Shown here: in pieces, positions 135 to 15,566 of the stretch
Layout of the letters: each line of letters begins with the position of its first letter
How positions within the stretch are numbered: the first letter of the stretch is position 1
Assembly (NCBI GenBank): GCA_025774205.1
Contig: JALGWK010000020.1
Span: 1-15,566 of the forward strand
DNA from: a bacterium
Lineage (GTDB): Bacteria; Blakebacterota; Blakebacteria; Blakebacterales; Blakebacteraceae
Length of the DNA stretch: 15,566 nt
Direction: 5' to 3'
Translations under genes and position numbers: made by a program
The notes under the pieces: generated by a model
What the model was told of the DNA's origin: nothing
What the model saw: only the letters and a program-made list of their open reading frames with translations
Databases searched by the model: none

Positions 135-1685
135 ATGCGAACCGTCATGAAAGCATTCTCGATAATCTGTGCCGGGACAGTGTTACTTGCTTTCGCCCCA
201 CAGCAGGTACCATCTCCCGACCTGGAGACGATCTCGAAAATCCGGGAAGAGGGTTTCCAGCGTTCCCGGGTCATGGATATCGCGGGCTACATGACCGATG
301 TCCTGGGCGCCCGTCTGACGCTTTCAGAGGACATGAAGGAAGCTCAGTACTGGGCCATGGAGAAGATGAGCGAGGTCGGGCTCTCCAATATTTCGCTCCA
401 ACCATTCATGGATTACGGTGTCACCTGGGATAACGAGTACTTCTCCCTCCATATGCTGGAGCCCGATTACCAGCCGCTGGTGGGATTCCCACTGGCTCAC
501 ACACCGGGCACGCCGGGGAAGATCACTGCTCCGGTGGTGATATCGGAGCTCACGACCCGGCGGGACCTTGACCGATACCGGGGCAGACTGGCGGGAGCGA
601 TTGTCCTGACCACCCCCCCGGCCGTGATCGATCTCGATAGGCTGGCCCGGGCAACCCCCCGTCGAACCGATGAGGAACTGAGACAAATGGAAGAGGAGGT
701 TGTCCCCCCTCGCCGCGGCCGTGGAAGTCCCACGCCACGGAATCCCGATCTGCTCAGCGCCGGGGAAAAGATCGCCTTCTACAGGAGTGAGGGTGTGCTC
801 GCGCTGCTGGAGTGCCGGAGCGGCTGGCCGGGCGCGGTCCGCGCATTCTCCCGGCCCGGATCGGGACAGGACAGGTGGTCACGCGAAGGCAACCTCGACT
901 CGCTGCCGATCATCGCGGTGACTCCCGAACACTACAACCGGATGTACCGGATCCGCGCACGGGGGATCCCGGTAACCGTCGAAATGGAGGTACGCAACCG
1001 CATGGGGGAGCAGGTCGAACAGGCCTGCAATGTGATCGGTGAGATCCCCGGCACCGACCTGCGGGATGAGGTTGTTATGATCGGGGCTCATTTCGACACC
1101 TGGCATGCCAGCCCCAACGCGAGCGACAACACCTCCGGATGCGCAGTCGTGCTGGAGGCGGCCCGGATCCTCAACGCGATCGGAGCGCGACCCCGCCGGA
1201 CCATCCGTGTGGCCCTGTGGGCCGGGGAAGAACAGGGGCTCCACGGCTCCCGGGAATACGTGTACCGGCACTTCGGCAATCCGGATGATCCGGAGATCGG
1301 GATCAAACCGGGTTACGACAAGTTCTCGGTTTACTTCAACCAGGATTACGGGGCCGGTGCCTTCCGCGGGATCCAGCTGCAGGGGAATGAGTACGCGCGA
1401 CAGTTCTTCCGGGCCTGGATGGAACCGCTGAGGGACCTCGGTTTCACGGCCATATCGATCCGGAGCGTGGGCAGCACCGACCATATACCGTTCGACGCGG
1501 TGGGACTGCCCGGTTTTCAGTTCATCCAGGATCGCATTCCCGGAACCGGCGGGCACACCAATCTCGATTTTCTCGACACCCTGCAGGAAGAGGACCTGAG
1601 AAAGAACGCCGTCATCATGGCGGTCTTCGCCTGGCAGTCAGCCATAAGTGATGACCGGATACCTCGGAAGAAGGACCAGGAGTGA
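135..1685 (+). CDS. exported M28-family zinc metallopeptidase with PA-like insert
   Basis: Predicted zinc-dependent aminopeptidase or carboxypeptidase of family M28, acting outside the cytoplasm. Residues 1-22 look like a Sec signal peptide (basic start, hydrophobic IICAGTVLLAFA). The region of about 125-285 is where M28 exopeptidases often carry a protease-associated domain. The catalytic core follows: GAHFD (H319 ligand), NASDNTSG (D331 bridging ligand), WAGEEQG (E365 general base, E366 ligand), FNQDYG (D404 ligand), STDHIPF, and GGHTNLD (H475 ligand). The full two-zinc ligand set expected of M28 is therefore present, and 516 residues is normal for this architecture. The ATG at 135 is preferred over the in-frame ATG at 147 because GGAGG lies six bases before it. 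The stop overlaps the sulfatase start (GTGA), implying one operon with translational coupling. Peptide specificity cannot be read from the sequence. Confidence 0.9.
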   Translation: MRTVMKAFSIICAGTVLLAFAPQQVPSPDLETISKIREEGFQRSRVMDIAGYMTDVLGARLTLSEDMKEAQYWAMEKMSEVGLSNISLQPFMDYGVTWDNEYFSLHMLEPDYQPLVGFPLAHTPGTPGKITAPVVISELTTRRDLDRYRGRLAGAIVLTTPPAVIDLDRLARATPRRTDEELRQMEEEVVPPRRGRGSPTPRNPDLLSAGEKIAFYRSEGVLALLECRSGWPGAVRAFSRPGSGQDRWSREGNLDSLPIIAVTPEHYNRMYRIRARGIPVTVEMEVRNRMGEQVEQACNVIGEIPGTDLRDEVVMIGAHFDTWHASPNASDNTSGCAVVLEAARILNAIGARPRRTIRVALWAGEEQGLHGSREYVYRHFGNPDDPEIGIKPGYDKFSVYFNQDYGAGAFRGIQLQGNEYARQFFRAWMEPLRDLGFTAISIRSVGSTDHIPFDAVGLPGFQFIQDRIPGTGGHTNLDFLDTLQEEDLRKNAVIMAVFAWQSAISDDRIPRKKDQE

Positions 1686-3121
1686 CGGATCACGATCGAC
1701 GCGGGTTCCTCAGAACAGCGGCGCTGGGTCTCGGTGCCACTTCGATGGGCGGGCTCCTGACCTCGGCCTGTTCAGGCAGATCCGGGAGTAATCCGCCCAA
1801 TATCCTGGTGCTCTTCACCGACGATCAGCGCTTCGACACCATCGGAGCGCTCAACTGTCCCGAGATCAGCACCCCCAACATGGACCGGCTGGTGCGAGAC
1901 GGCACCAGTTTCACGCGGGCTCATATCATGGGCAGTAACAGCGGCGCGGTCTGCATCCCCAGCCGGGCCATGCTCATGACGGGTGCCTCCCTTTTCCACC
2001 TGGAGAACAACGGCAGTTCTATACCGGAAGGCCAGGTCACGCTGCCTGAAGTCCTGAGGCGGAACGGGTACCGGACGTTCTTCACCGGCAAGTGGCACAG
2101 CAGCAAGGCGGCGTTCGCGCGGGGCTTCACCGACGGCGGCAGGATCTTTTTCGGCGGGATGAGCAATCACCTGAAGGTGCCGGTATTCGATTTCAATCCG
2201 TCAGGTGAATACCCGAACGAGAACCGGTACCTCGGGAATGAGTTCTCCGGCGAGATGTTCTCCGACGACGCGATCGAATTCATCGAGAACTGTCCGGCGG
2301 AGAAACCGTTTTTCGCCTGCCTCTCGTATACCGCGCCGCATGATCCCCGGATGGCGCCGGATGCGTACACGGACCTCTATCCGCCGGGGAGCATCAGCCT
2401 GCCCGGGAACTTCATGCCCGAGCATCCCTTCGATAACGGCGAGATGAGGATCCGGGATGAGGCCCTGGCCCCATGGCCCCGCACTCCCGGGATCGTGCTC
2501 CAACACCTGGCTGACTACTACGCCATGATCAGTCATGTGGATGCCCAGATCGGCCGGGTGCTGGATGCCCTGGAGCGGAGCGGGAGAGCGGATGATACCT
2601 GTATCATCTTCACGGGCGACAACGGCCTCGCGGTAGGCAGCCACGGCCTGCTGGGGAAACAGAACCTCTACGATCACAGTGTAAGGATCCCGCTCGTGAT
2701 CTCAGGACCCGGCATCCGGCGGGGTGTCAGGGCCGACGGGCTCTGCTACCTGCACGACATCTTCCCGACCGTGTGCGACCTGATCGATCTCCCGGTGCCC
2801 GGGAGCGTCGAGAGTTCGAGCCTGGCTCCTCTTCTGAAACGACGGAGAGCCCGGGTGCGGGATTCGGTCTTCTTCGCCTACAAGACTTTTCAGCGAGGCA
2901 TTCGCACCGACGACGACTGGAAACTCATCCTGTACAACGTCAACGGCAGGAGAACCACCCAGCTGTTCAATCTGGCGGATGATCCCCTCGAAATAAACAA
3001 CCTCGCCGGGGATGGCGAGCACTCCAACCGAATATCAGAACTGACTCAGCTGCTGCGGGATCACATGCGGGCTATCGATGATCCCTGCGATATCGACCAG
3101 CCCGGCTGGGGAGTTGGTTAA
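1682..3121 (+). CDS. Tat-exported formylglycine-dependent sulfatase (S1 type)
   Basis: Predicted type I sulfatase hydrolysing sulfate esters of glycans or small organosulfates. The N-terminus has a twin-arginine-like signal (DRRGFLR, residues 5-11), a hydrophobic stretch, and a cysteine at 30 (TSAC) that could be lipidated, although T at -3 is a weak lipobox. Catalytic signatures are complete: TDDQ (D47, D48 metal ligands), the CxPSR motif CIPSR with C91 as the formylglycine precursor, TGKWH (K137, H139), APHDP (H220), TGDNG (D313, N314) and GKQN (K326). Length 479 is normal for the family. The start is GTG at 1682, overlapping the TGA of the peptidase gene; AAGG about seven bases upstream is the likely ribosome site. 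Activity needs a formylglycine-generating enzyme or anaerobic maturase, and neither is in this window. Subfamily and substrate cannot be assigned by eye. Confidence 0.93.
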   Translation: MTDHDRRGFLRTAALGLGATSMGGLLTSACSGRSGSNPPNILVLFTDDQRFDTIGALNCPEISTPNMDRLVRDGTSFTRAHIMGSNSGAVCIPSRAMLMTGASLFHLENNGSSIPEGQVTLPEVLRRNGYRTFFTGKWHSSKAAFARGFTDGGRIFFGGMSNHLKVPVFDFNPSGEYPNENRYLGNEFSGEMFSDDAIEFIENCPAEKPFFACLSYTAPHDPRMAPDAYTDLYPPGSISLPGNFMPEHPFDNGEMRIRDEALAPWPRTPGIVLQHLADYYAMISHVDAQIGRVLDALERSGRADDTCIIFTGDNGLAVGSHGLLGKQNLYDHSVRIPLVISGPGIRRGVRADGLCYLHDIFPTVCDLIDLPVPGSVESSSLAPLLKRRRARVRDSVFFAYKTFQRGIRTDDDWKLILYNVNGRRTTQLFNLADDPLEINNLAGDGEHSNRISELTQLLRDHMRAIDDPCDIDQPGWGVG

Positions 3122-3129
3122 TCACAATC

Positions 3130-3144
3130 GGGGGCTGTTCCCCC
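3130..3144. terminator. weak GC hairpin between convergent genes
   Basis: The 110-bp gap between the convergent sulfatase and kinase genes contains GGGGG-CTGTT-CCCCC, a 5-bp stem with a 5-nt loop, nine bases after the sulfatase stop. A second short stem, CAGGA-CCGGC-TCCTG, lies at 3205-3219, about 12 bases past the kinase stop on the other strand. Neither is followed by a real T-tract, so intrinsic termination is only a possibility. Confidence 0.25.
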
Positions 3145-3231
3145 CTTCCCGTGTCCGGATCATTCACCCCGGCGACAGGAGTATATCTGGTAGGATTACG
3201 ATTTCAGGACCGGCTCCTGGATCAACCTCAA

Positions 3232-5844
3232 TCACCGATAGCGGTCGATAATCTCGCGGAATCGCGGATCGTCTCGGAGGGGATCCCATAGAGGATCGAT
3301 CTCCGCAAACTGACTCGAGAAACCGCCAGGTCGGGAGAGCAGGAATTCGAGCGTTTCCAGAGCCATGTCATAATCCCCCAGCAGGAGATAGATAGTGGCC
3401 AGGTGCTGTACATAGTTGATCCCTTCATAGGCATCCATGGATACCGGGTAGAGCTCTTCGACCGGTAGCAAGCCTTCTCTGAGCGCTTCCTCTCGTCGGC
3501 CAAGGCCTGCCAGGGCTATTCCCAGAGCCGAATGGAAACGGGGATCGTCGGGTTGACTTCTGACCTTACCCTCGATATGGATGCGGGCTTCTTCGAATAA
3601 TGCACGGGCCCCGGCATCATCATCATCAATTAACAGGTGGTATAAAGCCTCCTGAAGAGGTCGCGGAAGGTACGCCTGAGGATTGTTGAATCCCTCGAGC
3701 GGATAAGTGTCCAGCGCCGTGCGAAGAAGGGCTGTGTCCCTTTCAAAGAACGCCTGCCCCAGAGCCAGTCCCTGACGGATAGGATTCATCGGTCCCATCC
3801 GATTGAACTGGTCCAGATTGGCACGGGCTGCTTCAAGGTCGCCCTGGAGCCAGCCGGCCTGGATGAGTGTTATCCAGGCCCATTCGAATCCGGGATCGAG
3901 GGCAAGGGCCTTCTCAAAAAGATCCTCGGCTCTCTCATAGTCTCGAACAAGCATGAGAGTGGTACCCAGATCCCATGGGGCGGAGGGCTCGAGCGGATCG
4001 AGGTTGATCACGTTCTCCTGTATCTCTATTGCCTCATCGAATCTGCCCAGCCGTCGGAGTATGAATGATGTCCCGCTCAGGATCTCGACATCGTTTGGAA
4101 GGTGCTGCCGGGCATGTTCCAGTTCAGACAGGGCGCGGTCATAGTCACGATGAGCCCAGTAGTAGCGATAGCCATTGGCCCGGAGCACATCGGGATGGTC
4201 GGGATCGAGCCTGAGGGCCTGTTCGATGGCATCCCGGGCCATCTCCTGCCGCTCGGAAGTCCGATCCTCACCAAAATGGTGGGCAGCGGCATGGGCCTGC
4301 GCCAGTTCGGCCCAGGCCAGAGCGAAGTCGGGATCGAGTTCGACTGCGCTCGTGAAATACCCGACCAGCCTGGTCGCATAACCAGCCGTTATGGACCATT
4401 TCAGGCGCCTGCCAAGCAGGTAGGCGGTATAGGCTTCAGGACTCTCGGTCAGACGCTCCTCGACAGTTGTCTCACCCGGTTGAACAAGAGCCAGGTTGAG
4501 TTCTCTTACCACCTTGTCGGCGATCTCCGATTGGATGCGGAAGATCCCAGCGAATTCCTCTTCGTACGAGGCGGACCAGATCTGAACCCCGTCTGAGGCG
4601 TTCGTGAGTTCAGGGGTGATACGGATACGGTTCCCTGCCCCAGCCGATCGTTCCCATCGAATTGTGCCGGAGAGCACGAAATCGGCTCCGAGATCCCTCC
4701 GGATCTGCTGGGTGGAAAAATCCTGGCCCTTGAACTGGATGACACTGTTCCGGGAGATGACTTCCAGCGTTTCCAGGCGATTCAGCCGGGACCTGATCTC
4801 GTCGGCCATGCCCTCGGCGAAATACTCATCCTCAGCCGAACCGAGGTTCTCGAAGGGAAGCACGGCCAGACGGGGAATACCGGCGGAAGCACTTGAGAGG
4901 AGACCGGGCAGGAAGGCCACTGCACCCAGGACTATCACTACCAGTCCGGTAACCAGTAGAGCCTGGCGCCTCGGCAGAGAGATGGTCTTCCTCGGCTCGT
5001 GGGGTGTAATCGTCACGGTCGAGGTGTCAAATTCACTCCGGACGGCCTTCAAGTCGTTGATCAGTTCGGAACAGTTCGCGTACCGGAGTTCCGGATCCTT
5101 CTCCATCATCCGCTTCAGGATCGACTGCAGATTCTCCGGGACATCTTCCCGGTGAGTGGTTACCGGGTCCGGCTCGGTGTTGATGATGGCGAAGATCGAC
5201 TCGGCTTCAGAAGAACCGGCCTTGAAGGGGAGTTTGCCGGTCAGTAGTTCATAGAGGACGATTCCAAGGGAGAAGATCTCACTCCGTCGATCCACGATCC
5301 CGCCCGTGATCTGTTCGGGGGGAGAGTAGGCCAGCGTGCCGAGAGTGGTTCCTGAACGGGTGAGCTGGCTGTGCGCTTCAAGCTGGGCCAGACCGAAATC
5401 CATCAGTTTCACCCGGCCCTCGAGCGTCACCATGATGTTGGCGCTCTTCACATCCCGATGAAGGATCCCCTGGCCATGCGCAACCCCCAGAGCCTCAACC
5501 GTCTGGAGGATGATATCCACGGCCTTCTTGATGGATACATGGGAGCCGTCGACCATATCCTTGATGGTCTTGCCCTCGACGTACTCCATGGCGATGTAAC
5601 TTTCGCCCTCTTCTTCGAGCAGGTCGAAGACTGTGGCTATGCCGGGATGGTTCAGCGATGAAGCTGCTTTTGCCTCACGGATGAAGCGCTCCTGGCTTTC
5701 CTCGTCATCAGTGAGGTGGCGGGAGAGAGCCTTGATGGCGACCAGGCGATCCAGGGCCGTGTCCTCAGCCTTGTAAACCGAGCCCATGCCGCCTTCACCC
5801 AGCTTGTCGATGATGCGGTATTTACCAATGGTAGTGCCTATCAT
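3232..5844 (-). CDS. transmembrane Ser/Thr protein kinase with TolB/FlgO-like domain and TPR repeats
   Basis: A bacterial Hanks-type (PknB-like) kinase with an extracytoplasmic sensor half. Residues 9-270 are the kinase: glycine loop GEGGMGSVYK (16-25), ATP lysine K38 in VAIK, helix-C glutamate E57, catalytic loop HRDVKSAN (D131, N136) and DFG (D149). All catalytic residues are present. A proline- and threonine-rich linker leads to one hydrophobic segment at about 293-315. Residues about 320-450 (PRLAVLPFENLG ... FAEGMADEI ... GADFVLSGTIR) match the TolB/FlgO-like module common in such kinases and in adenylate cyclase-TPR proteins. From about 465 to the end there are TPR-like helical pairs ending in motifs such as LDPD and YDRAL. 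The ATG at 5844 gives the typical kinase start but lacks a strong ribosome site. Divergent from 5998 and 6131, convergent with the sulfatase. Signal and target are unknown. Confidence 0.93.
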   Translation of the reverse strand: MIGTTIGKYRIIDKLGEGGMGSVYKAEDTALDRLVAIKALSRHLTDDEESQERFIREAKAASSLNHPGIATVFDLLEEEGESYIAMEYVEGKTIKDMVDGSHVSIKKAVDIILQTVEALGVAHGQGILHRDVKSANIMVTLEGRVKLMDFGLAQLEAHSQLTRSGTTLGTLAYSPPEQITGGIVDRRSEIFSLGIVLYELLTGKLPFKAGSSEAESIFAIINTEPDPVTTHREDVPENLQSILKRMMEKDPELRYANCSELINDLKAVRSEFDTSTVTITPHEPRKTISLPRRQALLVTGLVVIVLGAVAFLPGLLSSASAGIPRLAVLPFENLGSAEDEYFAEGMADEIRSRLNRLETLEVISRNSVIQFKGQDFSTQQIRRDLGADFVLSGTIRWERSAGAGNRIRITPELTNASDGVQIWSASYEEEFAGIFRIQSEIADKVVRELNLALVQPGETTVEERLTESPEAYTAYLLGRRLKWSITAGYATRLVGYFTSAVELDPDFALAWAELAQAHAAAHHFGEDRTSERQEMARDAIEQALRLDPDHPDVLRANGYRYYWAHRDYDRALSELEHARQHLPNDVEILSGTSFILRRLGRFDEAIEIQENVINLDPLEPSAPWDLGTTLMLVRDYERAEDLFEKALALDPGFEWAWITLIQAGWLQGDLEAARANLDQFNRMGPMNPIRQGLALGQAFFERDTALLRTALDTYPLEGFNNPQAYLPRPLQEALYHLLIDDDDAGARALFEEARIHIEGKVRSQPDDPRFHSALGIALAGLGRREEALREGLLPVEELYPVSMDAYEGINYVQHLATIYLLLGDYDMALETLEFLLSRPGGFSSQFAEIDPLWDPLRDDPRFREIIDRYR

Positions 5845-5997
5845 GAGTCACTCTATCCGGTATGTGTGAATGATCACCCCGGGATCCCGCCGCACATCAC
5901 AGTCCAATAATTATTAGTAATCCTAACGACAGGACGGGGATCCGACAAGGCCTATTTATAACTAATGTAGTTACAGATAGTCTGCGGTGACCGGCTC
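5845..5997. promoter_or_regulatory. AT-rich divergent control region with perfect inverted repeat 5959-5973
   Basis: This region separates the kinase (minus strand) from the small ORF and phosphoesterase (plus strand). The stretch 5905-5980 is much richer in A and T than the rest of the window. It contains a 10-bp palindrome AATAATTATT at about 5907-5916 and a perfect 6-3-6 inverted repeat TAACTA-ATG-TAGTTA at 5959-5973. A TATAAC (5957-5962) resembles a -10 box for rightward transcription, but no good -35 is visible, so the promoter call is weak. The inverted repeat would suit a dimeric repressor placed to control either or both directions. Confidence 0.4.
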
Positions 5998-6216
5998 ATG
6001 CCTGATCTTGAAATGAAAATCATGGAAATACTGGGAGCCTGGCTTCCGGATGACCTCAGGTCGGATATCCATTACCTTGCTGACTACCATGAATCACCGT
6101 CTACAAGCATTGCTCTGCGAGGAAGCATAGATGAAGCGCTCGAACACCCTGCTGGCAGCGACAGTCGGCCTGGTCATCGTGATCGTGGTGATCGGGATCC
6201 TCTCCTTCAGCGGTAA
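5998..6216 (+). CDS. small ORF resembling a ribbon-helix-helix (CopG/Arc-like) DNA-binding protein
   Basis: A 72-codon ORF from ATG at 5998 to TAA at 6216. Residues about 16-50 follow the spacing typical of CopG-type ribbon-helix-helix proteins: LPDDLRSDIHYLADYHES, then S-x-S-x-x-LRGSIDEALE. That would be a short strand, helix A, a turn and helix B. The last 20 or so residues are Arg/Asp/Gly-rich and come from DNA shared with the start of the next gene (86 bp overlap, different frame). They look like run-through rather than conserved protein, so the ORF may be a decayed or truncated gene. Third-position G+C is lower than in the neighbours. The ribosome site is weak. An inverted repeat 25 bases upstream would suit autoregulation, as is usual for RHH antitoxins, but no toxin partner is adjacent. 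It may also be a chance ORF. Confidence 0.35.
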   Translation: MPDLEMKIMEILGAWLPDDLRSDIHYLADYHESPSTSIALRGSIDEALEHPAGSDSRPGHRDRGDRDPLLQR

Positions 6217-7714
6217 CCAGCCCCCCGCCGGTCCTGAAGTGACCGGTCCCATGGCCCGGGGTACCGTGTTCGAAGACCGGAACGGCAACGGGATCATGGA
6301 TGGAGGTGAGCCCGGTCTTTCCGGGGTACGGGTTTCAGATCAGCGATTGGTGACCGAGACCGACCGGCAGGGTCGCTGGGCTCTTCCCGCTCACGAAGAA
6401 GCGGTCTACTTCATCATCAAACCTCGCGGATACGTGACTCCTCTTTCAGAGGGCGGCACCCCGCTCTTTTATTATCTCCACAAGGAGACCGAACAGCTCG
6501 ACCTTCAGGGCCCCACCGTCTCTCCCACCGGCCCCCTGCCCGAATCGATCAACTTCCCGCTGGTGAGGCAGCCCGAACCGGACCGGTTCGAGGCGATCTT
6601 CATGGGTGATCCCCAGCCGAGGAACCTCACCGAGGTCAATTATTTCGTGCACGACGTGCTCGAGGAACTTTACGGCACCGCGGCACTCTTCGCCGTTACT
6701 CTCGGGGACCTGACCTTTGACGACCCCGCCAACTATCCGGCTATCAACCAGGCCGTCGGGATGGTCGGGGTCCCTTTCTACCACGTTCTCGGCAACCACG
6801 ACGCCAACTACGACGGGGCGGACACCCACGAGCATTACGAGACCTGGCGCACCTTTTACGGACCCCGTTACTACTCCTTCGATTACGGCCCCGTCCACTT
6901 CGTCATCCTGGCTGATGTCCTCTTCCCGGAAGGCGGCACCCGGTACATCGCGGGACTCGGTGAGCGACAGCTGGAGTGGCTCGAACACGATCTCTCCTTC
7001 GTTCCGGAGGACCAGCTCGTCGTGGTGAGCATGCACATCCAGTTGACCGGCACTTCGGGGATCCCCGATTTCGAGAGGATGTACGAACTCCTTCAGGACC
7101 ATCCCCACACGGTCTCTTTCAGCGCCCATTCCCACACCCTCACCCACAGTTTTCTCGATGAAGAGAACGGCTGGATGGGACCGGAACCGCACCATCACAT
7201 CAACGCAGGCGCGTCCTGCGGCCGCTGGTGGGGCGGCAACAAGGATGAAACGGACATCCCTCACACCTCGAGTTCGGACGGCACCCCGAACGGCTACTTC
7301 ATCGTCACCTTCGACGGGAACAGGTACTCGACCCGGTACAAGGCGGCACGCCGACCTGCCGACTGGCAGATGCAGATCCAGGCGCCTGATGAAGTAACCC
7401 GGCCGGAGCTGGCTGACACACCCGTCCTGGTGAACGTGTTCAACGGCAGCGAGCGGTCCCTGGTGGAGATGACGGTCGGAGAGTCAGGTGAGTGGGTGGA
7501 GATGGCGTTCGCGCCCCAGATCGATCCGCTCTACGCCAGGATTGCGAGAGAGCAGAGTGATCAGGGTGCCTCGAGATGCAACCACATGTGGGAGGGGAAA
7601 CTGCCGGCCGATCTCTCACCGGGCGGTCACCTGATCCGCGTGAGAGTAACCGACATGCACGGGCAGGTCTTCACTGACACCCGTATCATCCGGGTTGGTG
7701 TTGAAACTCCGTAA
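6131..7714 (+). CDS. exported calcineurin-like phosphoesterase with MetallophosN/C-type domains
   Basis: Predicted two-metal phosphoesterase anchored in or exported through the inner membrane. Residues 1-28 form a signal or anchor helix (LVIVIVVIGIL). Residues about 42-105 are a small beta domain (GTVFEDRNGNGIMDGGEPGLSGV) of the SdrD-B/MetallophosN kind; D49, N51, N53, I55, D57 and E60 match EF-hand loop positions 1-3-5-7-9-12, so calcium binding is likely. The metallophosphatase core has MGDPQ (D160, Q162), LGDLTFDD (D193), GNHD (N222, H223, D224), SMHIQ (H302) and SAHSHT (H333, H335), a full ligand set. The C-terminal third (TRYKA ... VNVFNGSE ... VRVTDMHG) fits the MetallophosC beta domain that follows this core. 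GAGGAAG at 6119-6125, five bases before ATG 6131, supports the start. It overlaps the small upstream ORF by 86 bp. The natural substrate is unknown. Confidence 0.9.
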   Translation: MKRSNTLLAATVGLVIVIVVIGILSFSGNQPPAGPEVTGPMARGTVFEDRNGNGIMDGGEPGLSGVRVSDQRLVTETDRQGRWALPAHEEAVYFIIKPRGYVTPLSEGGTPLFYYLHKETEQLDLQGPTVSPTGPLPESINFPLVRQPEPDRFEAIFMGDPQPRNLTEVNYFVHDVLEELYGTAALFAVTLGDLTFDDPANYPAINQAVGMVGVPFYHVLGNHDANYDGADTHEHYETWRTFYGPRYYSFDYGPVHFVILADVLFPEGGTRYIAGLGERQLEWLEHDLSFVPEDQLVVVSMHIQLTGTSGIPDFERMYELLQDHPHTVSFSAHSHTLTHSFLDEENGWMGPEPHHHINAGASCGRWWGGNKDETDIPHTSSSDGTPNGYFIVTFDGNRYSTRYKAARRPADWQMQIQAPDEVTRPELADTPVLVNVFNGSERSLVEMTVGESGEWVEMAFAPQIDPLYARIAREQSDQGASRCNHMWEGKLPADLSPGGHLIRVRVTDMHGQVFTDTRIIRVGVETP

Positions 7715-7741
7715 GGAGCCGGGACGAGGGGCCTTCTCTCC

Positions 7742-8506
7742 CTATCTCCAATCACGACGCTGACTGAAGAGCCAGGCCCACACTTCCGGATCATCGTAGG
7801 TCTGAGTCCAGGAGTCGTGTCCGGCACCTTCGTGAACGGTCAACCTGATCCTTTCGCCACCCCGCGCTCGTATCATCTCGACCATACGTTCCGACTCTGC
7901 CAGGGGAACCACCCTGTCCTCGTCACCATGGAATGCCCATATGGGAAGGTCTCCCAGGTTCATCGCGTCGATGAAGGCTCCGCCACCGCAGATCGGGATC
8001 GCGGCCGCGAATCGTCCGGGTTCTTTCGCCGCCAGAGCCCAGGTGCCATAGCCACCCATACTGAGACCGGTGATATACACTCTTTCTTCATCGATGTTAT
8101 GGGTGTCGATCACTTCATCGAGCAGCATGCTCAAAGCTTCGAGATGATCTGTCCACCAGGTCCCGGCAGGGCACTGCGGTGAGATCACCACCGCCGGCAG
8201 ATCGTCACCCCGATCGATGATTTTTGGGGGCCCGTGGGCTTTCACCCGATCAAGATCGGATCCCCTCTCTCCTGCCCCGTGGAGGAACAGCAGGAGTGGG
8301 ATCGCTTCAGAATCCGCGGTATAGCCCTCCGGCAACGAGATCAGGTAGTGGAGGGAGAGGGTATGCTCGACGACTCTCTCGAAATGTCCGGTTTCGTTTT
8401 GACCGATGGCGGGTGACGCCATGCCGGTAAACCATGATGCCAATGCGATCACGCAGATCAGCGGTGTATTGCGGCAGACTGGAGTACGATTCCTGTCTCT
8501 TCTCAT
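7742..8506 (-). CDS. exported alpha/beta-hydrolase (prolyl-oligopeptidase/esterase-like)
   Basis: Predicted secreted serine esterase or peptidase of the single-domain alpha/beta-hydrolase type often annotated as phospholipase/carboxylesterase or poly(3-hydroxybutyrate) depolymerase-like. From the ATG at 8506 (254 residues), residues about 14-35 are a Sec signal (LICVIALASWFTGMASPAIGQ). Motifs: LFLHGAGERGSD (oxyanion region, about 73-84), nucleophile elbow TGLSMGGYGTW (Ser149), GDEDRVVP (Asp197) and GAGHDSW (His230), a complete Ser-Asp-His triad. The frame is open upstream to 8557, but ATG 8506 is preferred because AGGGAA lies about eight bases before it and it begins immediately before a normal signal peptide. 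The 3' end lies 27 bp from the convergent phosphoesterase stop. It is last of the four minus-strand genes, 136 bp after the cytochrome gene, so it may have its own promoter. Substrate unknown. Confidence 0.87.
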   Translation of the reverse strand: MRRDRNRTPVCRNTPLICVIALASWFTGMASPAIGQNETGHFERVVEHTLSLHYLISLPEGYTADSEAIPLLLFLHGAGERGSDLDRVKAHGPPKIIDRGDDLPAVVISPQCPAGTWWTDHLEALSMLLDEVIDTHNIDEERVYITGLSMGGYGTWALAAKEPGRFAAAIPICGGGAFIDAMNLGDLPIWAFHGDEDRVVPLAESERMVEMIRARGGERIRLTVHEGAGHDSWTQTYDDPEVWAWLFSQRRDWR

Positions 8507-8642
8507 CTTCAGTTCCCTGGTTGATCGATACTCGACAGAGGCAATTACCGTCAGCATCGTAGCAGCCAGTGAACCAGAGCGTCATCCAGCCAATATCGAT
8601 GACCGGATATTCTTACCTATAACCCTGAGGTATGTGACGATC

Positions 8643-9417: not shown

Positions 9418-12400
9418 CTACGGCACGATCACCCGGGCGGCTTCGACCTGGATGCCGAACCGGGGATCACCGCGCCGCTCATTCCCCAGTCGCTCCGCCT
9501 CCGCACTGTTACCAGTAAAGACCGCGATCGCCCAGCGCACATCTGCGTTGCCGCGGGAACGCGTCCTCAACTCCTCAAGCAGCCCATCGGCATCTTCATC
9601 CTGGCCGGATTCCCTGAGCGCGAGCAGTCCGTAGAGGTGATGTGAGCCGCTCGATATCCCATGCTCGACCGTGTACTCGACCGCCCGCTGAAGAGCTTCA
9701 CCAGCTCGTCTCCTGTTTCCTGCCCTGTTCCAGGCTACATACTCGAGGTAGTCCTGCATCCTGAAGTCAGGGTCATACGGCTCACCGGTCCCCAGGCGCT
9801 CGGGATAGGTCTTCGAACCTTCCAGGTAGTAGACAGCCGATCGCCGATCGCCACCTTCGATAGCCTTCAGGGCGAGTATGACCTGGGTCCGCATGAAGAG
9901 GTTGTGGGCTTCCCACCCGCCTTCGTAGGGCAGCACGACCAGATCATCCAGGATGGTGAGACAATCAGCATATCGCCCCGAGTCGAACAGGGCCCCGGCG
10001 TGATCCATGGTAATCTCGAGACGGTCAGGGAACCTGGCAGAGGCCTCCCTTGCCCGTTCAAGGGCTTCGGCCGCCATACCGCGTCGCCGATATTCGGAGA
10101 CCAGGTAATGCCAACCCCGCCAGTTGTCCTCGTCGATCTCGATAGCCCGATTGAACTGCGACAAGGCATCACTCTGGTCGAGTAATCCGATCATCAGGTG
10201 GAAGGGGACGAATTCAGAGTCGAGACACTGCCCGAACAGTTTGGCCGCCTCCTCCTCCCGTCCCAGCCCCTGGTAGATGAGGCCGAGGTAGTAATGCGGC
10301 TTCCAGCCGGCTGAACGGTGACCGGCGGCCCACTCAAGGACCGGGATCGTCTCAACCCGGAAAGGGAACACCAGCTCCGGATCGGCGTCCTCTGCCAGCT
10401 CGAACTGCATATCACTGGTCGCGGCACCCAGTTCGACGTTCGAAAAGAGCCAGGCCAGCCAGTAATGGATGATCGGGTGATCGGGCGCGTTCTTCAATAT
10501 CACGATGGCTTCCGCATCGAGCCCGAGACGCTGGTACGAGATCGCCATCTCCAAAAAGTGTTCGTGCGGCAGTTCGCTCCTGATCATCGACGTAAACCGA
10601 TCCATGTTCTCACTGGTCTGGTCGAGCGCATACTGTTCGAACCGCGCCAGGTGATTCAGAGGATCGATTTCGAGGAGGTCATCCAGGATCGTACCTGCTC
10701 GGTCAGGATGGCTGAGGCGCAGGTGGATGATCGCCTGCAGTTCCATGGCCCTGATGTTCAGCGAATTGGCCGCCACTGCCCGATCGGCGTATTCAAGCGC
10801 CAGAGGAAGATCACTCTCCAGGATGCAGATCTCTGCCAGTTGGGAGTACGCATTGGAGCGGTATTTCAGTGATCGCGCCGCCCATCCCAGGGTCTCCTTC
10901 GCATCCACCAGCTGACCAAGCTGCCGGGCGACTACCCCATAGATATAATTGGCAGCCGGATCGTACATGACGAGTGAGAGAGCCCGGCCAGCGTACTCGA
11001 GTGCTTCCTGATACTCGGCCCGTCGCAGAAGGAGTTCCGCGATCCTGGTCAGGGCCCGGATGTGCTGCGGCTCCCTCTCCACGCAGGCCTGGTAGCGCCT
11101 TAACGCCCGATCATACCGCCGCCGCTTCTCCTCGAATTCGCCGGCGAGATAGAGCCCTTCGGCCGTACTCTCGTCGGGGGGATGGAACACGATGGGTCGG
11201 GTCAGTCGATCCGCGTCGGGATCAGAGTTCCAGCTCAACTTCCCCTCGATCTCGACCTGGATGTGCCCGTTCAGGTCATCGATTTCGAGCCCCCTACTGA
11301 AGACCTCCATCGTACCGATTTCAAGATGTTCGCGATGGATCTCCTCCCCGGCGACCGAAACGATCAGATCATCGTCGAGAGGCTGCAGCGGGCACACGCC
11401 CAGGAGGATGCGGCCGTCAGCGCGTTCGACATTCAGGACGGCGTGAGGTGAGGCCTTCACCATGCCGCCGATACCGTGGAACGGGAAGAGCATCTCGGTC
11501 CAGGCGTCGGCCGACAACGGCGCCAGGAACTCATGATCGTCCTGTGAGAAGTACCTGCCCGCCTGCGGTTCACTGTATTGACCATGGGTATCGGTGAGCA
11601 GATCCTCCCAGATGGCCCCCTGTCGGGAGATCGCCCAGATCCACATCTTCTTCCCGGGCATGTCGTCGTACAGGGCCCAGTGACCGAAGCCGAAATCGGT
11701 GTCATGCCAGTAGCCGCCGTAGAAGTCGGAGTACATCCCCAGCACGAAGTGGGATTTGCTGCCGCCGAAGGCGTTGTTCCGATACCAGGCGAGGTCTCGT
11801 CCGGTTTCATCCACCGGCCAGGGAGCCGGGGTCGCGGTGTAACCATGGGGCCTTCTCACCGTCCCGGGGTAGAAATACTGGAGTTCGTCGGAGGCCCGCA
11901 CGGCGTTGTTCGTCCAGACGTAGTACGACTGGTTAAGGGGAGTGGGATTATTCCATAGCGACCTGAGTTCCATGACCGCCTGCCCGGCCGGGAGCCTGAT
12001 CTCCATCGTCCAGCGGGTTCGTGAGGTCAGATCGAGGGTGCCGACGAAACAGCTCACACTCCCGTCGGCATTCTCCCTCATCAGGTAGTCAACCGGGGTC
12101 GCCGTCGTCGGGGCGTGACCGACCAGCCCGAAATTGAATTCGCTCCCTCCCGAGGTCCACGGTCCCCGCATGGCGATCTGGCGGAATTTGATGACGTCGT
12201 TCAGATAAATGAACTCTTCGCCGGTGGTCTTGTCGATTGCCCCGAACACCTTGCCCCCCACCCCGGGGAGCACCTGGACCTCGATGAACTCGTTCTCAAG
12301 GGTGACGACGGTCCACTCCTGCGGGATGCCGTCGTGGCTGTAGCCATTGAAGGCGAACGTGGCTGTAGCCATTGAAGGCGAAATAGGGGTAGATGGCGGG

Positions 12401-12553
12401 ATTGCGCACGAAGATCGGCACCGGATCGGGATCGGAGAACGGATAGGTCGTGATCGTCCGCCGCTCCTCTTCGATAACCGCCTGCTGCCCGGAGACCAGG
12501 GTGACAAACAGCAGGAACGCGAACAATGAGAGTGACAGGATCCGGATCTTCAT
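9418..12553 (-). CDS. secreted DUF5107-TPR protein, frame broken by a 25-bp tandem duplication
   Basis: As sequenced this gene is in two frames. The true start is ATG 12553 (GAGG about eight bases upstream), giving a Sec signal MKIRILSLSLFAFLLFVTLVSG, then FVRNPAIYPYFAFNGYSH. Here an exact 25-bp duplication (12333-12382) shifts the frame and translation would end at 12296 after 85 residues. The downstream frame is open from a TTG at 12507, but its first 45 codons are out-of-frame shadow and it lacks a signal peptide. With one repeat copy removed, 1036 residues read through without a break. Residues about 75-355 are a DUF5107 domain, a probable beta-sandwich with mutarotase-like features (NEFIEVQVLPGVGGKVFGAID ... 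RGPWTSGGSEFNFG ... YGGYWHD). From about 455 to 960 come TPR-type helical repeats. It lies 61 bp downstream of the DUF6067-like glycosidase and is very likely in its operon. DUF5107 has no function I can assign; a role in carbohydrate recognition or processing is inferred. Confidence 0.85.
12333..12382. repeat. exact 25-bp tandem duplication (two copies) causing a frameshift
   Basis: Copies occupy 12333-12357 and 12358-12382, are identical over 25 bases and abut directly. The unit begins CGTGGCTGTAGCC and ends AAGGCGAA. Because 25 is not a multiple of three, the second copy shifts the frame of the DUF5107-TPR gene. Both copies translate on the minus strand to the FAFNGYSH segment, each in one of the two frames. 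This shows the duplication is recent and that a single copy was the ancestral state. Confidence 0.97.
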
Positions 12554-12614: not shown

Positions 12615-15566
12615 TCATCGGCCATCGATGATCAGCAGCCAGCCGCGACCCGGTTCTACCGGGATCGCCTCGAAGGGGCCGAAGATTCCGGAGTCCTGGA
12701 AGTTCTCGATTGCCGGCGCGGAGATGATCACCTGTTCGGGATCGAGCCCCAGGGCTTCCCAATCAATATCGAGTGACACCTCGACCGGAGTGTCAGCCCA
12801 GCTGGCAATGGAGACCATGGTCCTTCCCTCCGCGATCCAGGTCGTCGCCAGCACCTCCCGATGATCGGTCGTGATCGGCGCGTCAGGCACCCAGTACCCG
12901 ATCATCCTGCTTTCAGCGATGCCGAAGTCGTCCCACGCCCGCCAGAGCGGAGCCGGATCGTTCCCCCCGTACGGCTGGCGGTTGGTCATGCCGTAGAGCA
13001 TGCCCCGCCAGGGATTCCCCCCACCCTGCAGCATCTCTCCCATCAGCCCGAACGGGATCCCCGATACTTCCACCATCCAGAAATCGGGGTCTGAATCGTA
13101 GTCAAAATATTCGCCGAACCAGAGCCGATCAATGAACGCGAAGTGTTCCAGGTAGAGATTGGCACTGTTGGTGAATCCATCCCGCGGATTGTACTGATTG
13201 GCCGAATGGAGATCGATGAGGGAGCCCGGGTTCCCCCGGTCGAGAATCTTCCGCACCCGCTTCATGACCGTCCGGCCGAATGCCACGTCATCGATGTAGA
13301 GCCCGTCGATCCCGACGTTCCGGACCAGCCAGTCGAGTCCCTCCAGGTAGAAGTTGTGCCAGCGGGAGACGCCGCTGTTCACGACCGCTACGTCCTCGTA
13401 TCGCGGCACGAACCAGCCGCCGATGTAGTTATCGATGAAATGTTCCTGCAACCAGGAGTGCCCTCCGCCAGGGCCGAAGGAGAGGATCTCATCCCCCAGA
13501 CTCCGGAGGGCGAAGAGCTCGGGGGCCCGGTTGGCCAGTTCCCTGACGGTATAGTAGATCTTGACCTTCAGCCCTTTCTCGTGCGCCTCATCCACATACG
13601 CCTTCATTTCGTCGGGCCGCAGGAAGGGATAGTTGATGTAGGGATTAATCGCGGTGGCGTGGTGCACGTTGATCACCGTTCCCCCCATCGAATCCACCGT
13701 GTCCACCGGATTGAACCGGTGATGGAAGCGGTTGCTCCACTGCTTGTCGGTATCGATCGGCCGGAAGGGGGTGATGGTCAGACGGAAGTCGTAATGGAGC
13801 GTTTCTCCTGCCTGCATGGTCCGGGGACCACTGAAACAAGTGATGAGGAAGGTGTCATCACCGTCGGGGGCCAGGCGCATCCCCCCCCTGCCGTCATTCG
13901 ACCAGGAGGTGGGCATCACCAGCGGTTTCTGCTGGTAGAAGTTGGTGTTGAGCGGCCGGGAGTAGTTCTCATCCCGCAGGCTGAACTGCAGTCCGGCGTT
14001 CACATCACCGATCCAGGCCCCGTCCTGGTTCTTCTCCACACCCCAGGTCCAGTCATAACTGTTGGATCGCAGGCCCCCCCTCGATCCCAGACCCATCATG
14101 TACTTTGCAACATCGTTTTCGAGGGGAATCAGGAGTCTGATATCGTTGAGGGAGATCTCTTCGTTCGCCGTGACCGTGATCCTATACTCCATGGTGCCGT
14201 CGAATTCGAGAGCCCCCTTCAGTTCGATCCGGAGCGTCCCGCATTCCCCCTGCGACTGCCACTCGGCCTTCCCCGGGGGCGGATTGCCGATCAGCAACAT
14301 GGACGAATTCCAGGTCATCGGCCGTCCCCGGGAGTCTTCCACCACCAGCTCCACCGGAGCGCTGAGCAGATTCCGACCGGTATCGGTGAGATGGGTCATC
14401 TCAGGGGCGAAGTAACTCACGATGCGACCGGGTAAACCACCCCGACCAAGGATCACCCGCCGGCCCAGAACCCGCAGTTCGTTCCGCTCCATCTCTACCG
14501 GAGTGTAGGGAGCCACGACCTCGTCATCTTCGGCAATCGTGGAATCGAGCCAGCGCAGCCGGGAGAGTCGCCACGGTTCGTCATCACCGGCGGCCTCGAT
14601 GACCTCATCGGTCACCTTCAAGCGGAGCCTGATCGTCTGGGTTTCAGACCCGGTCCCTGAGACCGCGATCTCACTCGTGTACACAACCGCTCTGGCATCC
14701 TCGGGGATCTGTACCCCGCACCAGAGTGCCTGCACCTTCCCCTCCTCCACCGAGATATCATTCGTAAACGCTTTGCCAGCCCAGTCGATCCCTCCCAGGT
14801 TGAAGCAGGTAAAGCGGGAGGCCGAAATAACATCATCACGGCCTGCTGCTTCGAGCGCTCCGAATTCCAGCCGCACATTCTCCAGAGACTGTCTCATTGC
14901 GTAGACACCCAGCTGAAAAGCGTAATACTCCCCTCGCATGGCTGTACCATGAAGTGGTACAGTCGGACCTGACTCGATCCATTTCTGCGGCAGGTCTTCG
15001 GTCATCCTGATGGAGAGGGTCCGATCCTCCGGGAACACCAGGTAGGTCAGCTCGGAGTATGTGGCGTGGAGCCGGTCTGTCTCCTCCCGGGTGGCAATGA
15101 TCTCCATGGGCCAGAAGGAGTGAAGCTCATTGATCGACTGGAACTCCGTCGTTCCAGCCTGCGGCAGATCCTGCAAGGTTCCTCCAGTGATCGCTTCACC
15201 AGTCAGGCTGTTTCGCTTCAGCCAGTCATCGTCCGCCGTCGATTCCGGTTCAGGGTAACTGACCCTCGGGTAACTGCCTCCCGAACTCACATGGGGCAGG
15301 TAATAGACGTAATAGTCACTTGGGACCGTCTGAGGCTGGAAGACCAGGTCACCGAACTCCCGGTTGATATCGACTCGGACCAGGTTGTCGATACGGTCAC
15401 CGGTCGCGGCATCCACGATGATGATATTCTTCGTCTCCGGTTCGTGATCCCGTCGTCTCCAGGGGACGCTGATCCGGACTGCATCCGCCTCGACATCCAC
15501 ATGTACCACGGCTCTGTGATTCCCGTACTCGGCCGCGTCCCACTCTCCCGTGGAATAGGGGATGTC
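12615..15566 (-). CDS. partial large glycoside hydrolase-like protein (DUF6067/GH123-like)
   Basis: The frame is open from the window edge to TGA at 12615, giving 983 residues without an N-terminus; the GTG at 15509 is an internal codon, since coding continues upstream (IPYSTGEWDAAEYGNHRA). The visible N-terminal part is beta-rich (about 1-600), with INELHSFWPMEIIAT (about 145-160) and RLRWLDSTIAEDDEVVAPYTP (about 336-356), features I associate with the DUF6067/GH123 N-terminal family. The region of about 610-900 looks like a TIM barrel: a KVKIYYTVRELANRAPE strand, then VGIDGLYIDDVAFGR (about 751-765) with D759 and D760 as candidate catalytic or substrate residues, then SLIDLHSANQYN, YFDYDSDPDFW and GEMLQGGGNPW. 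A C-terminal beta-sandwich ends at IDGR. GH123 normally uses an Asp-Glu pair, which I do not see at this site, so the GH123 reaction should not be assumed. Probably exported, but the signal is off-window. First visible gene of the minus-strand group, 61 bp before the DUF5107-TPR gene. Confidence 0.75.
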   Translation of the reverse strand, partial: DIPYSTGEWDAAEYGNHRAVVHVDVEADAVRISVPWRRRDHEPETKNIIIVDAATGDRIDNLVRVDINREFGDLVFQPQTVPSDYYVYYLPHVSSGGSYPRVSYPEPESTADDDWLKRNSLTGEAITGGTLQDLPQAGTTEFQSINELHSFWPMEIIATREETDRLHATYSELTYLVFPEDRTLSIRMTEDLPQKWIESGPTVPLHGTAMRGEYYAFQLGVYAMRQSLENVRLEFGALEAAGRDDVISASRFTCFNLGGIDWAGKAFTNDISVEEGKVQALWCGVQIPEDARAVVYTSEIAVSGTGSETQTIRLRLKVTDEVIEAAGDDEPWRLSRLRWLDSTIAEDDEVVAPYTPVEMERNELRVLGRRVILGRGGLPGRIVSYFAPEMTHLTDTGRNLLSAPVELVVEDSRGRPMTWNSSMLLIGNPPPGKAEWQSQGECGTLRIELKGALEFDGTMEYRITVTANEEISLNDIRLLIPLENDVAKYMMGLGSRGGLRSNSYDWTWGVEKNQDGAWIGDVNAGLQFSLRDENYSRPLNTNFYQQKPLVMPTSWSNDGRGGMRLAPDGDDTFLITCFSGPRTMQAGETLHYDFRLTITPFRPIDTDKQWSNRFHHRFNPVDTVDSMGGTVINVHHATAINPYINYPFLRPDEMKAYVDEAHEKGLKVKIYYTVRELANRAPELFALRSLGDEILSFGPGGGHSWLQEHFIDNYIGGWFVPRYEDVAVVNSGVSRWHNFYLEGLDWLVRNVGIDGLYIDDVAFGRTVMKRVRKILDRGNPGSLIDLHSANQYNPRDGFTNSANLYLEHFAFIDRLWFGEYFDYDSDPDFWMVEVSGIPFGLMGEMLQGGGNPWRGMLYGMTNRQPYGGNDPAPLWRAWDDFGIAESRMIGYWVPDAPITTDHREVLATTWIAEGRTMVSIASWADTPVEVSLDIDWEALGLDPEQVIISAPAIENFQDSGIFGPFEAIPVEPGRGWLLIIDGR

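Follow-up and report, generated by a model that had tools for sequence, protein, structure and literature searches.

A perfect 25-bp tandem duplication breaks the frame of a gene for a DUF5107-TPR protein in the 15,566-nt stretch of DNA analyzed here (the window), and our analyses indicate that the second copy is probably a local assembly error, an overlap left unmerged at a join. The window is the whole of contig C526 of G000, a MAG of 3.09 Mb in 527 contigs that is 86% complete. Two contig ends would have overlapped by less than the k-mer length of the assembler, and a scaffolding step would have joined them without merging the overlap, which was thereby written twice. The organism itself probably carries one copy and, with it, an intact gene of 1036 codons for a signal peptide-bearing DUF5107-TPR protein. 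This explanation is favored because the boundaries of the copies, the recurrence of such duplications across the assembly, their bias toward contig ends and the existence of allelic copy pairs all fit it. The original prediction had left the event as very recent, reversible or artefactual, which was right; among these three options, an artefact is the best supported.

The 25-bp repeat and the gene that it interrupts

The repeat comprises two identical abutting copies of CGTGGCTGTAGCCATTGAAGGCGAA, which reads TTCGCCTTCAATGGCTACAGCCACG on the minus strand, flanked by ...CCGT on the left and ATAGG... on the right. Tandem Repeats Finder, in agreement with inspection of the sequence, reported 2.0 copies at 12333-12382 with a 100% match and a score of 100, compared with a score of 44 for the second-ranked tandem array of the window; the identical 25-mers of the original prediction were thus confirmed. 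A search of the whole genome found the 25-mer nowhere but in these two copies, which rules out a repeat common to other loci. Given its top score in the window and the absence of the 25-mer elsewhere in the genome, the repeat is not a product of chance. Identity between the copies breaks off exactly at the copy borders on both sides, with no microhomology beyond. There was no Rfam match in the window, and an RNA element was accordingly rejected. The features at this locus are as follows.

12333..12357, minus strand: 25-bp unit, copy distal to the start codon (Tandem Repeats Finder and sequence)
12358..12382, minus strand: 25-bp unit, copy proximal to the start codon, containing ATG 12372 in the frame of the downstream part (sequence)
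12296..12553, minus strand: upstream frame, with ATG 12553, a predicted export signal (MKIRILSLSLFAFLLFVTLVSG, recognized by eye), the TYPFSDPDPVP motif, NGYSH and a stop at 12296 (translation)
9418..12348, minus strand: downstream frame, DUF5107 (PF17128) and TPR repeats, 976 codons (translation and domain search)
12615..15566, minus strand: upstream neighbor, a GH123_N (PF19543) protein whose 5′ end lies off the contig (domain search; the congener has the same neighbor)

Translation starts at ATG 12553, which has GAGG ahead of it and encodes MKIRILSLSLFAFLLFVTLVSGQQ. This frame continues from MKIRILSLSLFAFLLFVTLVSGQQ to IYPYFAFNGYSH, then falls out of frame and ends at 12296 after NGYSHVRLQWLQPRRHPAGVDRRHP. 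The downstream part matches PF17128 with an E-value of 7e-108 (360.6 bits against a cutoff of 24.4), TPR families follow the domain, and the stop codon of the DUF5107-TPR frame occupies 9418-9420. From ATG 12553 to this stop there are 3136 nt; one copy fewer gives (3136-25)/3 = 1037 codons including the stop, and hence the 1036 codons originally predicted, although the open frame downstream of the repeat extends for about 2.9 kb and not for the "over 3 kb" first claimed. In a mechanical list of open reading frames, which is not gene-caller output, the first start is TTG 12507 (1029 aa).

Apart from the duplication, the gene shows no damage, and the rest of its frame is open. Comparison with the congener gave a dN of 0.12 and a dS of 0.79, a ratio of about 0.15 that indicates clear constraint on the coding sequence. 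With the remaining frame both open and constrained, pseudogene decay was rejected. Programmed frameshifting was likewise rejected, since neither a slippery heptamer nor a homopolymer run of at least five was found where the two frames overlap. Within the unit, the ATG at 12370-12372 shares the DUF5107-TPR frame only when two copies are present (MATATFAFNGYSHDG...), and no recognizable ribosome site precedes it. Elsewhere in the window, positions 135-8557 encode an M28 peptidase, a sulfatase with SGSH_C, a Ser/Thr kinase-TPR protein, a calcineurin-like phosphoesterase and an esterase; together with the GH123_N gene, these possibly form a cluster degrading sulfated glycans.

Copy number in relatives

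The original prediction had proposed a comparison of copy number among orthologues, and we found one copy in all five orthologues with a readable N-terminus. Those of a KSB1 bacterium, an Acidobacteriota bin and two Aminicenantes bins carry the single copy in frame, and the congener G001 likewise has one copy, in an orthologue that is 82% identical in protein and 80% in DNA. Neither copy-number variation nor a repeat was seen at this site in the five, and no relatives were found in viral contigs. Because the relatives have one copy, the two-copy state is derived, and to date it has been seen in the window alone; the duplication is both derived and frame-breaking, as had been proposed, the frame from ATG 12553 ending at 12296.

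The congener gene itself appeared damaged in contig C14 of G001, in which its leader is seemingly missing (160 bp with the signal peptide apparently lost). The end of contig C282 (C282 1-218) carries an intact leader, kept at 82%, and a single copy, and the final 114 bases of this contig recur identically in C14, giving an exact 114-nt overlap. On the strength of this intact N-terminus and the overlap, we rejected independent decay of the congener gene, which, judged from these sequences, is probably intact and split over C282 and C14. Upstream of the overlap, C14 (about 1-700) carries the tail of a second GH123-type gene, without leader and with 88% DNA identity to the C282 tail. C14 is probably a branch or a chimera at a k-mer overlap, and this arrangement may stem from a strain variant, a paralogue or a chimera.

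Duplications and assembler traces across the genome

We performed a census of tandem duplications that were clean, perfect, two-copy and 16 bp or longer, covering 479 kb of G000 (readable sequence from 71 contigs, about 15% of the genome) and 390 kb of G001 (39 contigs). The census revealed 12 such duplications (17-70 bp) in G000 and none in G001 (p=0.0009; this and the following p-values are descriptive, as an initial inspection of the data preceded the choice of filters for "clean"). Besides the one at 12333-12382, they are:

Eleven other clean duplications in G000: L014:10809, L021:465, L044:3874, L045:6892, L048:10568, L069:1236, L072:3610, L079:253, L082:375, L084:689, L085:4976

The 12 lie closer to contig ends than a uniform distribution would place them (mean 0.25 of the half-contig, KS p=0.0003), and half of them fall within 500 bp of a contig end, a zone that holds 15% of bases (p=0.004). 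Given that the nearest contig end is 3.2 kb from 12333-12382, however, this bias says little on that repeat individually. Extra terminal homology of the duplications amounts to 0-4 nt, which is the chance level. Four are in frame (L014, L079, L084 and L085; L048 is less clear), the 25-bp repeat, L072 and L082 break frames, and L021, L044 and L069 are noncoding or at gene edges, the last of these in the start region of a gene that resembles uvrA. Wherever the coding duplication sites align to G001, the congener is single-copy. The second 25-bp copy would have arisen in the same way as the other duplications of this assembly. The same MAG also contains tandem repeats that seem to be noncoding and whose copies have diverged (L129:3221-3302 and after, L056:1259 and L036:1069); these look like genuine older duplications.

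Two imperfect repeats bear on how such copies are made. At L024:2613-2700 (period 44), in a gene with CxxCH motifs like those of a multihaem cytochrome, PAADPLSPIHIDNV is encoded by each copy, and the five differences between them are all in phase and synonymous. At L036:3261-3334 (period 37), both encode FLKAFATVKVLI with two synonymous differences. In each pair, the left flank is in frame with one copy and the right flank with the other, the copies being mutually out of frame. After a real duplication, mutations in a copy lying out of frame would not remain confined to synonymous changes, which argues against that origin; from their sequences, the pairs look like overlapping contig ends of two strains, concatenated unmerged.

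The contig-end overlaps sampled measure exactly 114 nt in both genomes and, in G000, also exactly 94 nt, and these lengths fit a de Bruijn assembler run at k=115 and 95. The published k series of IDBA-UD runs from mink 65 to maxk 115 in steps of 10 (PMC9258230), and from the fit to this series we infer that IDBA-UD assembled G000. N gaps of 6 and 11 in G000 show that it was scaffolded. Unmerged overlaps, with Ns between the copies, have been documented in IDBA-UD and CLC assemblies (Chen et al., 2020; PMC7111523).

Alternative explanations and known systems

Some findings count against an assembly error: the congener, with the same k signature, has no such duplications in the sample, and in-frame cases (L014, L079, L084, L085 and perhaps L048) somewhat exceed the one third expected of an error blind to frame. 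The absence of N gaps from G001 suggests that it is less scaffolded, and some of the G000 duplications may be real. These same findings leave room for a real and recent 25-bp duplication in the population sampled, which would simply be a loss-of-function mutation whose further decay has not yet begun. The duplication is perfect and derived, in keeping with such an event, some of the others are in frame or noncoding, as expected of survivors of selection, and the diverged repeats point to genuine duplications in the past. We nevertheless regard this origin as unlikely, given that the copies have no terminal homology, that twelve events in 15% of the genome against none in the congener would call for a strong mutator lineage, that the contig-end bias would go unexplained, and that the allelic pairs indicate that unmerged joins do occur in this assembly. 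It is highly improbable that short tandem duplications lacking terminal homology really arise at a high rate in the G000 lineage and that some, such as the one at 12333-12382, toggle genes reversibly.

The original prediction highlighted an on/off switch for a secreted protein through slipped-strand mispairing. In such a switch, cells would gain and lose the second copy by slipped-strand mispairing or recombination; in a variant of this reading, ATG 12372 would start a cytosolic form in the two-copy state. Export of the protein is predicted, this ATG does lie in the downstream frame, and capsules of pneumococci are known to be switched by duplications that arise spontaneously within genes (Waite et al., 2001, 2003, as cited in PMC4243769). 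No recognizable ribosome site precedes ATG 12372, and the frame overlap has neither a slippery heptamer nor a homopolymer run of at least five. There are only two copies, and no relative has an array at this site. Slippage usually uses short terminal homology, which the 25-bp copies do not have. The duplications occur genome-wide at unrelated and noncoding sites, including the apparent uvrA start region, and do not mark a set of surface genes. With no one-copy variant of the G000 organism found either, the switch is unsupported, and we consider it extremely improbable.

An assembly error thus remains the preferred explanation. The repeat is of low biological interest in itself and useful as a caution: short frame-breaking duplications in draft metagenome genomes should not be taken as switches or pseudogenes. 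Checks that work without reads (counting perfect abutting repeats, measuring their distance to contig ends, using a congener as control and looking for synonymous "allelic" copies) could flag similar errors in other bins. If reads carried two copies, the census would instead indicate an unusually duplication-prone genome.

Among known systems, capsule phase variation in pneumococci, as described in PMC4243769 for cap3A, cap8E and tts (citing Waite et al., 2001, 2003), also involves a short perfect tandem duplication that shifts the frame of an ORF and is in principle reversible by loss of a copy. There, reversion was observed in culture, whereas the G000 organism is uncultured and represented by one assembly, with the same scar scattered over unrelated genes and noncoding sites. 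The gene product resembles the exported DUF5107-TPR proteins of the congener and the KSB1 relative in domain order, TYPFSDPDPVP motif and N-terminal export signal, and differs only in the second 25-bp copy, which occurs in no relative. The published unmerged-overlap error (PMC7111523) has Ns between the copies, and other joins in G000 do carry Ns, whereas none separate the copies at 12333-12382, where the gap estimate may have been zero or less. In other respects the likeness is close: the single sequence of the relatives is perfectly doubled at a putative join, the pattern recurs in the assembly, and pairs of strain variants occur at L024 and L036, though not at 12333-12382 itself.
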